64,000 nt of DNA from assembly GCA_004295015.1 (NCBI GenBank), contig SHNE01000035.1:1-64000 (forward strand). Reading direction: 5' to 3'. The notes beneath the pieces are model-generated. The model did no database searches and was not told the origin of the DNA. It was given only the letters and a program-made list of their open reading frames with translations. Both the position numbers and the translations under genes were made by a program. Of this stretch, positions 41,559 through 56,467 are shown piece after piece (position 1 is the first letter of the stretch; each line of letters starts with the position of its first letter). Source of the stretch: Bacteroidota bacterium. GTDB lineage: Bacteria; Bacteroidota; Bacteroidia; AKYH767-A; 2013-40CM-41-45.

Positions 41559-41594
41559 CAAACAAACCTGCATAGATCTATGCAGGTTTGTTTG
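41559..41594. repeat. 36-bp perfect palindrome between paralogues
   Basis: Eighteen-base arms without a loop, centred at 41576/41577 (core CTGCATAGATCTATGCAG). It lies 17 bp beyond the 3' end of paralogue 3 and 18 bp upstream of paralogue 2's start. As RNA it would form a strong hairpin but with only a weak U-tract, so it may be a terminator, an mRNA processing site or an operator. Confidence 0.7.
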
Positions 41595-41611: not shown

Positions 41612-44600
41612 TTATTGGAGTAAAATTCTTTTACTCACGGTTCCGTTACTCGTCCTTACCTGTAAAAAATACACTCCTTTTGCAGCGGAAGAAAGATCTA
41701 TGCTGTTTCGATAAATACCGGTCCCGCTAAACGAGTCAGTCCAGACGTCTTTACCAAGTATATTCATTACACGTAATTCAATTTTGCTCTTAACTTGTTT
41801 GATGCTAAGTTCAAAATTACCGTTAGAAGGGTTCGGGAATAATTCAATATCGGTTTCGTTTAATATCGGGTTAACGCTTGTGATGAGTGTAATTACTATG
41901 GTGTCCGACCCCTGACAGTTGTTTGCATCAACGACTGAAACATAAACCGTAGAAGGTGTTGAAACATTAATGGTCTGTGTAGTTGCATTCGTACTCCATA
42001 AATAAGAAGTGTAACCTGAACCTGCATTCAAGGTCAGTGTTTGTCCTGAAACGATCCCGATTGTATCAGGGCCAAGAACTACCGACGGTGCAGTGTGTAT
42101 GGTGGCAGTAACAGGAGTTCTCAAACTTGGGCAGGTTCCATCATGGGCCTCTACATAAAATGTAGTCGTAGTGGTAAATGTATTCTGGTAAGTGCTGCCG
42201 GTAGCAACAGCTGTACCTCCACTTGGAGCAGTGAACCAGCTAATACTATTTGAAGCATTTGCAGAAAGCGTGAGCTGAGCAGGTCCGCAACTGGATGCAC
42301 TTGTTACTGTTGGTGTATTAGGTCGTGGGTTCACGGATGCAAGCACCGGAACAAAATTGCTCAAGCAACCGGAAATACCGGCAACAGCATAATAAGTAGT
42401 TCCTGTTGAGATGGAAGGTGTCGTAAAACTGTAACCTGTTCCCAGTAAAGTTCCGTTAGGAGCATCATACCAGGAAACCGGATCAGGCGATGTGGCGCTC
42501 AGATCAACTGTGCCATTTCCACAGCGATTACCAGGAGTTACAGCAGGGTCTGCAGATGTAGTTGCTATGATGGCATCAACCGGGACACGTGCACTCAAAC
42601 AGCTTGTACCGGCTTGTGCATAATAGGTGGTGGTAGTGTTGATCGAGGGAGTAATGAAGCTTGTTCCTGTTCCAAGAGCTGTTCCTCCGCTTGCTGCTGC
42701 ATACCAGGAAATGGTGTCTGAAGAAGTTGCAGTGAGTGTGACAGTTCCCGGTCCACAGTTAGAACCCGTACTTACTGTTGGTGGGGCGGTCACATTAATT
42801 TGTGCAATGACTGCAACCCTTGAGCTGTTACAACCCGACTGAGAGGCTTGTGCATAATACGTGGTTGTTGAACTGATCACAGGCGTGGTGTAATTAATTC
42901 CGGATCCGACCTGTATACCTCCTGTTGAGGCAGTCCACCATGATATTGGACTTGTTGAAGTAGCAGAGATTACAACAGTACCGGTTCCGCATCGGGCTGC
43001 ATTACTTGGAGCAGGCGGATCAACGATCGTTATGGTTGCGGTTACAGGTACCCTTGAACTGGCACATGCATTTACTGCTTGTGCATAGTAGGTAGTTGTC
43101 ACAGCAAGGACAGGAGTCAAATAAGTTGGTCCTGTTCCGATGAGTGTTCCGCCAGTTGAGGCGTTGTACCACTCTATCGGACTTGGAGAAGAAGCAGATA
43201 ATGTAACGGAAGCGGGTCCACATGCACTTTGAGAAGTTACGGTAGGCGGAGAGGCACTGTTTATTATTGCATCAATTCCGACGGGAGTGCTTGGGCAAAA
43301 TGTTCCTGCGACTGCATAATATGTTGTTGTGGCATTCAGATATGGTGTGGTAAACGAATTGCCCGTTCCGAGCAGCAGGCCATTGCTTGTAGCGTCATAC
43401 CATGAAATCGGATCGCTCGCTGTTGCACTGAGTGCTACGGTTCCAGGACCACAGTGAATCACGTTTGATCCAACCGGTGCGGTTGAGGTATTGTTGACAA
43501 TTGCCTGCACTTCTATTCTGTTGGGACAAGAGCCTACTTCCAAATAATATGGAGTGGTTGAAGAAATTGATGGAGTTGTGAATGATGTTCCGCTGGCCAG
43601 TGATGATCCTCCAGTTGCGGCAGCATACCAGGATAAGGACTGAGATGAGTTAGCGGTGAGTGTAACCGTACCGGTACCACAACGATTTTTATCCAAGGCA
43701 GTTGCTGCCCCGGTGCCGATTAAGGCTTGAACAGGAATGCGGTTACTTTTGCAAAACTGATAAGGTACAAACACTTCCCAATCGTAAAAATAATAGTAGC
43801 TGCTTGTTCCACCACTGGAACCATAAATTTCAAGAACTTTAGAAACAGCGTAAGGATAAGTATTACCGGAACTGTTGCGGAATAATGCGCCGCTTCCTGA
43901 ACCTAATCCCAGGCGATAATCATTTCCCGGAGGGATACTAAAATTTAAATATACACGGGATTCACCAATAGGCACATTTACTGTTTTCGACTGAAGTACT
44001 GTTCCTGAAGAGTTTCTGAATTCAATGGTTCGGTTACCCGCTGTAGTTGCATACACCTTCACAGACACCAGTGTCCAGTTAATTCGACTGTCGAATTTCA
44101 AGTATCCGCTGGTGCTGGTAGAGCCCCCACCTGCTGTGTTATCGGTTCGGCCGGCCCTATTTCCTTTTCCACGAAGAGCTTCAACATGATAAGAAGTACT
44201 GGATGTCAAATTTGGGCTTGTGTAGTTAGTGCCCATGTAAACCAGATTTCCTCCACTCGGTGCATCATACCAAAACAATGAATCTTCCGGAGCGGCAGGG
44301 CTAGCTTGAAGTGAGACTTGTCCGCTTGTACAACTCACTCCTGAAGTTGTTGTTGGGTCCTGAACAGGATTGACAACTTCTATGGTCAGATAGCTCGTAT
44401 CGTTTGAATAGGAAATATCATTTACTCTGTGAGATATGGCTGCTACCAGATCATAGGTTCCTGTGCTCGGAAATTCTATAGTTTCGTTGAAAACGAGGTT
44501 CGCTGAAAAGGAAGGAAGCAAAGCGCTGTTCAGCGTATCCTGAATTGTCTTGATAATTGTAGATCCGTTTTTTACCACCAAAGACAAGGCAATGTTTACT

Positions 44601-54561: not shown

Positions 54562-54599
54562 AATTTTATATTCGGACAATTATATCCGAATATAAAATT
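54562..54599. promoter_or_regulatory. Perfect inverted repeat, likely operator of the Rrf2 operon
   Basis: Fifteen-base arms (54562-54576 with 54585-54599), 8-nt spacer, core TATTCGGA/TCCGAATA. It lies 5-42 bp upstream of the -7 box at 54604 and covers where the -33 element should be, the standard place for autorepression by an Rrf2 protein. I saw no other copy in the window. Confidence 0.75.
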
Positions 54600-54603
54600 T
54601 ATC

Positions 54604-54611
54604 TATCTTTG
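54604..54611 (+). promoter_or_regulatory. Probable -7 element of the Rrf2-globin-TDO operon
   Basis: TATCTTTG, 16 bp upstream of the ATG at 54627. The 5' end of the longest open frame (TTG at 54609) overlaps this box, so the start at 54627 is preferred. Confidence 0.55.
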
Positions 54612-54626
54612 CGGCAAAGAAGAGGT

Positions 54627-55106
54627 ATGTTTTCAAAGGCGTGTGAATATGCAATCCGGGCATCGGTTTATATCGCTGTTCAGTCTCTTGAAGGGAAGCG
54701 GGTAAATTTGCAGGATATCTCGGCTGAAATAAATTCACCCGAGGCTTTTACAGCCAAAATATTACAAACACTTGTTAAGAATGGTATTATTCAATCACTA
54801 AAAGGACCTAAGGGAGGTTTTAGTATTGAAGCTGATAAGACTTACAAAGTATTCCTGAGTGATATTGTAAGTGCTGTTGACGGAGATAGTATTTATAAAG
54901 GATGTGGCTTAGGTTTGAAAGAATGTTCGGAGAAATTCCCCTGCCCGGTGCACGATAAATTTAAAAAGATCAGAGATGATTTGCGGAGAATGCTGGAAAA
55001 GACCAGCCTGTTTCAATTATCAAAAGAGTTAAAGAAAGGACATACCTTTTTATCCGGTCACAGTCGTACTCCAAGCAGGGGTCGGTTTCCTGTATCAGTG
55101 CAATGA
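54627..55106 (+). CDS. Rrf2/NsrR-type iron-sulfur transcription regulator
   Basis: 159 residues. Winged helix at about 1-65 (MFSKACEYAIRASVYIA; QTLVKNGIIQSLKGPKGGFS). Three cysteines in the C-terminal part, Cys93, Cys100 and Cys106 (C-x6-C-x5-C), match the cluster-binding triad of NsrR/IscR-type Rrf2 proteins, though the first spacing is one residue longer. It lies behind an inverted repeat that covers the promoter, and 13 bp before a truncated haemoglobin gene. Role inferred as nitric-oxide- or redox-responsive repressor of its own operon. A cysteine-desulfurase-type IscR is less likely as no isc genes are here. Confidence 0.85.
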   Translation: MFSKACEYAIRASVYIAVQSLEGKRVNLQDISAEINSPEAFTAKILQTLVKNGIIQSLKGPKGGFSIEADKTYKVFLSDIVSAVDGDSIYKGCGLGLKECSEKFPCPVHDKFKKIRDDLRRMLEKTSLFQLSKELKKGHTFLSGHSRTPSRGRFPVSVQ

Positions 55107-55119
55107 TTTAACCTTACCC

Positions 55120-55512
55120 ATGACAAAAAAAGAAATTCTAAATCTCGAAGACATTAAGTTACTGGTCGACACTTTTTATAGTAAGATCAGGGAAGATCAA
55201 TTGTTAGGTCACATCTTTAATGGAGTAATTCAGGATCGTTGGCCAGTGCATCTTGAAAAAATGTATCGATTCTGGCAAACGGTTTTACTGGAAGATCATA
55301 CGTATTTCGGGAGTCCGTTTTTACCGCATGCAAAGTTGCCTATAGGGGTAGAACATTTTGAGCAATGGTTACATTTGTTTTATCAGACTATTGATGAATT
55401 ATTTACAGGCGATAAAGCGAATGAGGCAAAATTGCGTTCAGGAAAAATGGCAAAAATGTTTCTGAGTAAAATTGAATATTATAGAAACAACCCCTCAGTT
55501 ACTCCAATGTAA
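55120..55512 (+). CDS. Group III truncated haemoglobin
   Basis: 130 residues, matching the short 2/2 globin fold of group III (trHb3). The RWPVHLEKMYRFWQ helix and the LPIGVEHFEQWLHLF segment, which carries the proximal His, are recognisable; distal-pocket residues are less certain. Such globins bind O2 and NO and are proposed to detoxify NO or manage oxygen at low concentrations. It follows the Rrf2 regulator by 13 bp and precedes TDO by 43 bp, which supports a common haem/NO or oxygen-sensing theme. Confidence 0.88.
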   Translation: MTKKEILNLEDIKLLVDTFYSKIREDQLLGHIFNGVIQDRWPVHLEKMYRFWQTVLLEDHTYFGSPFLPHAKLPIGVEHFEQWLHLFYQTIDELFTGDKANEAKLRSGKMAKMFLSKIEYYRNNPSVTPM

Positions 55513-55555
55513 AATGAATTACCGGTCCACTAATTTATATTTAATATAAATCAAC

Positions 55556-56467
55556 ATGTCACAAGAAGAGATTATCAGATCAATCAATGAAAAATATAAA
55601 AGTAATGGAGAGAATCCCGATACCTATTTAAAAGGATTGCTGCAGGCAAAACCATTGAACTATTGGGATTATGTCGAGGTGGATACTTTGCTTTCTTTGC
55701 AAAAGCCCCGTACAGATTTTAAAGATGAAGAGATCTTTATCATGTATCATCAGGTCATTGAATTGGTTTTAAAATTGATGTTGCACGAGATTAAGCAAAT
55801 TGTAGAGGCTGTTTCACCTCCGGAGGACTTTATCATTACTAAAATAAAACGATTAAACCGGTATACTAATATGCTTATGACCTCCTTTTCTGTTATGCGG
55901 GATGGCATGAGTTATGAAGACTATAACACTTTTCGTTCTACTCTTGCTCCGGCCAGCGGATTTCAAAGCGCTCAATTCAGGTACATAGAAATCTATTGTA
56001 CACGACTGGAGAATCTTATGAATGAAGAGGGCAAAAAGCGGTTGACTAAAACTCCTTCAACTGAGGAGTATTTCGAGAATATATATTGGAAAGATGCGGG
56101 ACTAAACAGAAAAACCGGAGAGAAAACCTTAACCCTTCGTCAGTTTGAAGAGAAGTATCTGGAAGGATTTATTTCATTGGCGAATAAAATGCAGGGAAAA
56201 ACAATTGAAGATATTATTTTGAAGTATAAAAATCCTTCTGAAGAGCTTAATGCGTCGTGCAAGGAGTTTGACCGCTTGTATAATATTGAATGGCCATTGA
56301 TACATCTTGGAACAGCCCGTCATTATCTTGACAGCAAAGGAGAAAATCAGGCAGCAACGGGTGGCTCTGAGTGGAAAAAATATCTGCATCCAAAATTTCA
56401 GCAAAGGAAATTTTTTCCGGCTTTGTGGTCAGATGAGGAAAAGAAAGAGTGGGGAGACCGGGTATAA
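55556..56467 (+). CDS. kynA: Tryptophan 2,3-dioxygenase
   Basis: Haem enzyme that opens the indole ring of L-Trp to N-formylkynurenine using O2, in the cytoplasm. The YHQVIELVLKLMLHE helix near 65-79 is the family signature (substrate and haem-contact region), and the C-terminal HLGTARHYLDS segment with the ATGGS loop near 270-285 would hold the proximal His region. The length, 303, is normal for bacteria. No other kynurenine-pathway genes adjoin, so the product may feed NAD synthesis encoded elsewhere. Last gene of the Rrf2 operon. Confidence 0.9.
   Translation: MSQEEIIRSINEKYKSNGENPDTYLKGLLQAKPLNYWDYVEVDTLLSLQKPRTDFKDEEIFIMYHQVIELVLKLMLHEIKQIVEAVSPPEDFIITKIKRLNRYTNMLMTSFSVMRDGMSYEDYNTFRSTLAPASGFQSAQFRYIEIYCTRLENLMNEEGKKRLTKTPSTEEYFENIYWKDAGLNRKTGEKTLTLRQFEEKYLEGFISLANKMQGKTIEDIILKYKNPSEELNASCKEFDRLYNIEWPLIHLGTARHYLDSKGENQAATGGSEWKKYLHPKFQQRKFFPALWSDEEKKEWGDRV

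Follow-up and report, generated by a model that had tools for sequence, protein, structure and literature searches.

The window analyzed here is a stretch of 64,000 bp of a Bacteroidota genome (assembly GCA_004295015.1, contig SHNE01000035.1, positions 1 to 64,000). It contains three co-directional genes on the plus strand, located behind a perfect inverted repeat and encoding an Rrf2-family regulator, a group III truncated haemoglobin and a tryptophan 2,3-dioxygenase (TDO) paralogue that we named TDO2. The features are as follows:

54562-54576 and 54585-54599, no strand: arms of the perfect inverted repeat AATTTTATATTCGGA-N8-TCCGAATATAAAATT (15-nt arms, 8-nt spacer), the proposed Rrf2 operator
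54568-54593, no strand: 26-bp operator motif ATATTCGGACAATTATATCCGAATAT, which matches the palindromic motif derived from orthologues
54604-54611, plus strand: Bacteroidota-type -7 promoter element TATCTTTG (TAnnTTTG)
54627-55106, plus strand: Rrf2-family regulator gene, 159 aa (Pfam/NCBIfam)
55120-55512, plus strand: group III truncated haemoglobin gene, 130 aa (Pfam; solved relative 2ig3)
55556-56467, plus strand: TDO2 gene, tryptophan 2,3-dioxygenase paralogue, 303 aa (active site, fold)

The coordinates agree with the original prediction in that all three genes lie on the plus strand, with gaps of 13 bp between the Rrf2 and globin genes and 43 bp between the globin and TDO2 genes. The arms, spacer and position of the repeat were also as described: its centre precedes the -7 box by about 24 bp and so falls on the -33 region of the Rrf2 promoter. 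By length, the repeat at 54562-54599 ranks among the top two perfect repeats of the window when spacers of 3-20 nt are allowed, and its arms of 15 nt compare with longest arms of 9-12 nt in five Markov-1 shuffles of the window. A chance inverted repeat was rejected because the shuffled windows gave shorter arms and because the motif is conserved upstream of orthologues, also in a held-out test (see below). Elsewhere in the window, a perfect 36-bp palindrome (18+18, spacer-free) is present at 41559-41594 in the intergenic region that separates two minus-strand genes encoding large repeat proteins, with a degraded half-copy at 41694-41708; this palindrome is likely a terminator or other regulatory hairpin.

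The product of the second gene matches Pfam Bac_globin (30 bits), and its best solved relative is the group III globin 2ig3 (E 5e-16). Residues Y20, H44, H70 and W83 align with haem-pocket residues of 2ig3, and we take them to be, in positional names, the B10 Tyr, E7 His, proximal His and G8 Trp. This relative and the four aligned residues place the protein among the group III truncated haemoglobins.

Conservation and distribution of the operator

The regions of 150 bp upstream of 97 Rrf2 orthologues (at least 45% identity) yielded a 26-bp palindromic consensus, TATTTAGGAYAAATTTRTCCTAAATA, which has the core RGAY-N6-RTCY and AT-rich flanks. With a motif trained on this same set, the operator was found above the 99% shuffle level upstream of 86 of the 97 orthologues, and 82 of the 97 upstream regions scored higher than the maximum of 1940 shuffles. 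The predicted conservation of the repeat upstream of orthologous Rrf2 genes is therefore borne out, but the conserved unit is narrower than the perfect arms and N8 spacer seen at this locus: it is limited to the RGAY-N6-RTCY core, and the C preceding GGA is variable. The same motif scan found the operator in none of 14 more distant Rrf2 genes of the relatives. When the motif was trained on only 13 sites from close relatives, with a few loci of the training and test sets sharing a genome, 61 of 75 test upstream regions were above the 99% null. The held-out PWM score of the window site was 20.5, higher than that of any shuffled upstream region.

In 79 of 84 orthologues, the operator centre lies 22-27 bp before the TAnnTTTG -7 element. 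This position, over the -33 element, corresponds to the geometry of a repressor site. The operator also precedes other genes, namely RIC genes (loci L047, L170, L173 and L180), COX1-family genes that are oxidase- or NO-reductase-like (L041, L171, L187, L205, L209 and L214), a globin gene (L034) and Crp/Fnr genes.

A plain search of the operator pattern allowing three mismatches gave 1997 matches, too many to be informative. With a covariance model, the window site ranked first genome-wide (E about 0.003), and the next two matches fell inside coding genes. RIC is encoded outside the operon (at C19) in this genome, and its gene had no operator match in this genome-wide search. For these reasons a wider regulon in this genome was rejected and, with one convincing operator genome-wide, the local regulon probably consists of the Rrf2-globin-TDO2 operon alone.

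The Rrf2 regulator and its neighbours

The first gene product belongs to the Rrf2 family (PF02082, 82.4 bits against a cut-off of 30; TIGR00738, 83.2 against 73.3), and the ATG start at 54627 is backed by the conserved N-terminus MFSKACEY of the orthologues. The cysteine motif noticed originally, C93-x6-C100-x5-C106, is present and is invariant together with H109 in all 92 non-redundant orthologues, with the 6/5 spacing in 90 of them. The label NsrR-type did not survive as a statement of orthology: the protein scores 23.7 bits against the NsrR equivalog NF008240 (cut-off 182), and its higher score against the IscR equivalog TIGR02010 (57.4 bits, cut-off 207.6) is also below the threshold, as is its score of 38 bits against the RirA model.

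An NsrR-like role is nevertheless suggested by the neighbours. In a sample of 58 loci picked by the regulator alone, RIC/ScdA is a neighbour in 38, and the other recurrent neighbours are hemerythrin, group III globin, NO reductase subunits, nos genes and anaerobic ribonucleotide reductase. The names RIC, hemerythrin, HTHP and COX1-type were assigned with Pfam/NCBIfam, and NO reductase, nos and ribonucleotide reductase were read from the sequences. Since the orthologues adjoin genes for the Fe-S repair proteins RIC/YtfE, NO reductases, nos functions, hemerythrins and globins, it is very probable that the regulator serves these bacteria as their NO/denitrification repressor; because it fails the NsrR model, we consider it NsrR-like in role and do not call it NsrR. 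It looks as an NO-responsive Fe-S repressor should, and from this likeness we infer the Fe-S cluster, the sensing of NO and repression.

Alternatively, the regulator might sense oxidative stress or the general state of Fe-S clusters or iron, in the manner of IscR or RirA, with the NO link being secondary to Fe-S damage. The order of the model scores (IscR 57, RirA 38 and NsrR 24 bits, all under cut-off) fits this alternative, and so does the C-P-x-H that follows the third cysteine, which resembles IscR. We consider it unlikely, because the neighbouring genes encode NO reductases, nos functions, RIC and hemerythrin and do not form an isc or suf operon; no isc gene was recognised in the recurrent families around the regulator or around TDO2 in the two samples.

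Two further observations concern these loci. Genes resembling tryptophanase/tyrosine phenol-lyase (TPL) are located beside genes for NorC-type cytochrome and NorB-type or RIC proteins (L269 5989-8774, L042, L043, L045, L046, L048 and L065, and also in the genome of the window), and they represent a second type of aromatic amino-acid degrading enzyme linked with NO genes. A divergent COX1/FixO-type pair was found at L153 4550-6358 and L187 4409-7212, in the latter case directly downstream of the same operator; it scores 260 bits with the ccoN model (cut-off 583) and may represent an unusual NO reductase instead of a cbb3 oxidase.

The arrangement resembles NsrR regulons in its Rrf2 fold, three cysteines and palindromic operator on the core promoter, and, by linkage and motif, in the association of RIC/YtfE, globin, NO reductase and hemerythrin with the regulator. 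It differs from them in that the regulator is below the model cut-off, in the 6/5 cysteine spacing, in the RGAY-N6-RTCY operator, in the Bacteroidota -33/-7 promoter and in the inclusion of a tryptophan dioxygenase. The NssR regulon of Campylobacter, a single-domain globin plus a truncated globin, likewise places a truncated globin under a nitrosative-stress regulator, but NssR is a Crp/Fnr protein and its regulon has no TDO (cited in PMC1274295). A metagenome study reported an enrichment of Rrf2 genes on Clade II nos scaffolds and called their role difficult to predict (PMC6264515). Rrf2 regulators lie beside denitrification genes in these Bacteroidetes clusters as well, but TDO and globin go unmentioned in that report, the words 'tryptophan' and 'hemoglobin' being absent from its text.

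TDO2 and its linkage to NO genes

The genome of the window contains two TDO genes, TDO2 in the operon and TDO1 at C1:106155, which are 46% identical. TDO1 is located in a conserved housekeeping setting, on the leuS, scpB and ispG side (neighbours named by reading), and a quick ML tree placed TDO2 and TDO1 in separate, fully supported clades. Among 61 relatives, Rrf2, globin or RIC genes were present within 6 kb of TDO2 in 7 of 8 cases versus 0 of 43 for TDO1, a comparison that ignores relatedness and in which four of the seven belong to one genus.

Screening 84,980 species genomes for a stretch specific to TDO2 yielded at least 80 loci. Clustering of the neighbouring ORFs at the 80 TDO2 loci listed, with no family chosen beforehand, showed Rrf2 (42 loci), globin (39), RIC (34), hemerythrin (30) and a small membrane protein (25) to be the commonest neighbours. 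Among the matches listed, 51 of 77 full TDO2 genes have at least one of these five NO-linked families within 6 kb, and both Rrf2 and globin are part of the co-directional run of TDO2 at 29 of the 77. The genes are therefore repeatedly adjacent elsewhere. The three-gene unit is real here, but it is a condensed form of a larger cluster, to which other genomes add RIC, hemerythrin, HTHP, NO reductases and nos genes.

The remaining 26 of the 77 listed loci (e.g., in Aequorivita and Mesonia) lack all five neighbour families within 6 kb. Two lone Saprospiraceae TDO2 genes without Rrf2 nearby (L192 and L195) carry a strong operator themselves (score 21.9); apart from these, the TDO2 loci without NO-linked neighbours lack the operator among the matches listed. 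TDO2 is therefore not exclusively NO-linked, and its clade has ordinary members.

These lone copies, and the rarity of TDO2 in the phylum, would also fit a passenger role, in which a tryptophan catabolic gene came to lie downstream by chance or operon capture and has no role in the NO response. In an even sample of 395 genomes from across the phylum, 44 have a close Rrf2 and five have TDO2 (E up to 1e-100); TDO2 occurs in 2 of the 44 Rrf2 genomes versus 3 of the 351 others, the carriers being few. We regard a passenger role as highly improbable, because the linkage recurs with varied gene orders in Flavobacteriaceae, Crocinitomicaceae, Cryomorphaceae, Cyclobacteriaceae, Chitinophagaceae and other groups, because operators are located directly before TDO2 in L192, L195 and L197 (weaker ones in L198 and L212), and because TDO1 shows no such linkage in any of its 43 cases.

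Several observations were made alongside this survey. The small gene present between Rrf2 and globin in other genomes encodes HTHP (hexameric tyrosine-coordinated haem protein; PF11534, 119 bits), which, occurring in L037, L038, L213 and other TDO2 operons, is a further haem protein of the NO operon. A conserved membrane protein of about 145 aa occurs in TDO2/globin operons (L164 8851-9291 and, among the matches listed, 24 more loci); it has no Pfam or NCBIfam match, is absent from the operon of the window and is a candidate NO-response protein. The same-genus genome G001 is without the Rrf2 and TDO2 genes that the genome of the window (G000) has, and the operon has therefore been recently gained or lost. 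The Bacteroidota cluster also occurs in two MAGs that are labelled Oligoflexia (L173) and Verrucomicrobia (L214); the TDO2 of L173 is identical to that of L170, and both MAGs are probably mislabelled or contaminated.

The match of TDO2 to Pfam Trp_dioxygenase (85 bits) is partial and divergent, and TDO2 scores 100.6 bits against the NCBIfam TDO equivalog, well under the cut-off of 390.7. Housekeeping TDO1 also fails this model (98.2 bits), which indicates that the model misses the Bacteroidota branch. Residues F61, H65, Y123, R127, H250 and T268 of TDO2 correspond to F51, H55, Y113, R117, H240 and T254 of Xanthomonas TDO, and Y24, Y27, F51, H55, Y113, R117, L120, H240 and T254 (Xanthomonas numbering) are conserved in 84 of 84 TDO2 sequences. 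We take these residues to include the haem His, the distal His, the carboxylate-binding Arg and the substrate-contact Tyr and Thr. TDO1 deviates at Y113, with F in 22 of 23 sequences. An AlphaFold model of TDO2 (pLDDT 84.6) was used in a fold search, and all 50 PDB matches listed were TDO/IDO-type dioxygenases aligned over the full length (TM about 0.5-0.6). The degenerate protein suggested by the partial family match was therefore rejected, as active site and fold are intact. In addition, kynureninase and 3-HAO are both present in four genomes in which TDO2 is the sole TDO detected. Based on the conserved active site, the modelled fold and these co-occurring enzymes, we read TDO2 as a probably functional tryptophan 2,3-dioxygenase isozyme. 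Like the TDOs of Xanthomonas and Ralstonia, it has the full-length fold and the catalytic residues; unlike them, it is located in an NO-linked operon and has a housekeeping paralogue in the same genome, and it is about 20-23% identical to them in fold alignment.

A rival explanation is that TDO2 does not supply kynurenine but acts on NO directly, its ferrous-oxy haem yielding nitrate, or removes nitrated or nitrosated tryptophan. Its company of haem and di-iron NO-handling proteins (globin, HTHP, RIC and hemerythrin) would suit such a function, and tryptophanase/TPL-like genes also adjoin NorB/NorC genes in several Rrf2 loci. Against this, TDO2 keeps all TDO substrate-pocket residues, the TDO2-only genomes have kynureninase and 3-HAO, and lone TDO2 copies exist in non-NO contexts; we judge a direct action on NO or nitrated tryptophan to be quite unlikely.

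A proposed NO-response operon

The explanation that we favour, and regard as fairly probable, is an autoregulated NO-response operon in which NO would induce a TDO isozyme and so keep the tryptophan-kynurenine route running. The Rrf2 protein would carry an Fe-S cluster on C93, C100 and C106, with H109 perhaps as the fourth ligand, and, when bound to the palindrome over the -33 element, would repress the operon. Damage of the cluster by NO would release the repressor, and derepression would yield the regulator itself, the NO-binding or NO-oxidising group III globin and TDO2. The original idea of an NO-tuned repressor tying a TDO to a globin withstands both conditions that would have refuted it, the operator being conserved and the genes repeatedly adjacent, but its haem-sensing variant found no sign in its favour; judged from sequence, the evidence for a switch points to NO, not haem.

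The physiological purpose of TDO2 under NO is a step that we infer. TDO is a haem enzyme needing O2, and NadA of the alternative NAD route uses a [4Fe-4S] cluster. Most likely TDO2 would sustain the route from tryptophan to kynurenine, for tryptophan use and for NAD through quinolinate, a need that would arise when NO ties up the haem of the constitutive TDO1 and attacks NadA; induced TDO2 could then supply quinolinate by a path free of Fe-S enzymes. NadA is present in the genome of the window (G000) and was not found in some TDO2 genomes, in which tryptophan may therefore be the sole de novo NAD route. The genome of the window also has 3-HAO near genes resembling the ACMSD branch, so that simple tryptophan catabolism is equally possible. 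In mammalian cells, the effect of NO on TDO is bimodal, with low exposure raising its haem loading and activity and higher exposure lowering them (PMC10220489). Counting against this purpose, TDO2 is itself a haem enzyme that needs O2, and a greater NO resistance than that of TDO1 would be speculative. More tentative is the proposal of a dedicated NO-induced TDO isozyme that serves either as an Fe-S-free NAD bypass with NadA disabled or in direct NO/nitro-tryptophan chemistry.

A word-matching search of the open-access literature and few subscription journals found no prior description of a TDO inside an NO operon, and we found none of the association of TDO with NO defence clusters across the phylum. 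These results provide a concrete candidate operator, together with its regulon, for an NsrR-like regulator of the NO response in Bacteroidota, the phylum whose Clade II nos clusters carry Rrf2 genes (PMC6264515). They would also place tryptophan oxidation, and hence kynurenine and NAD supply, within a bacterial NO response. If TDO2 does perform direct NO/nitro-tryptophan chemistry, a TDO-fold haem enzyme would represent a new class of NO-detoxifying protein. If a spare TDO is indeed induced by NO, this would show how a bacterial lineage protects or exploits the pathway when under nitrosative stress.
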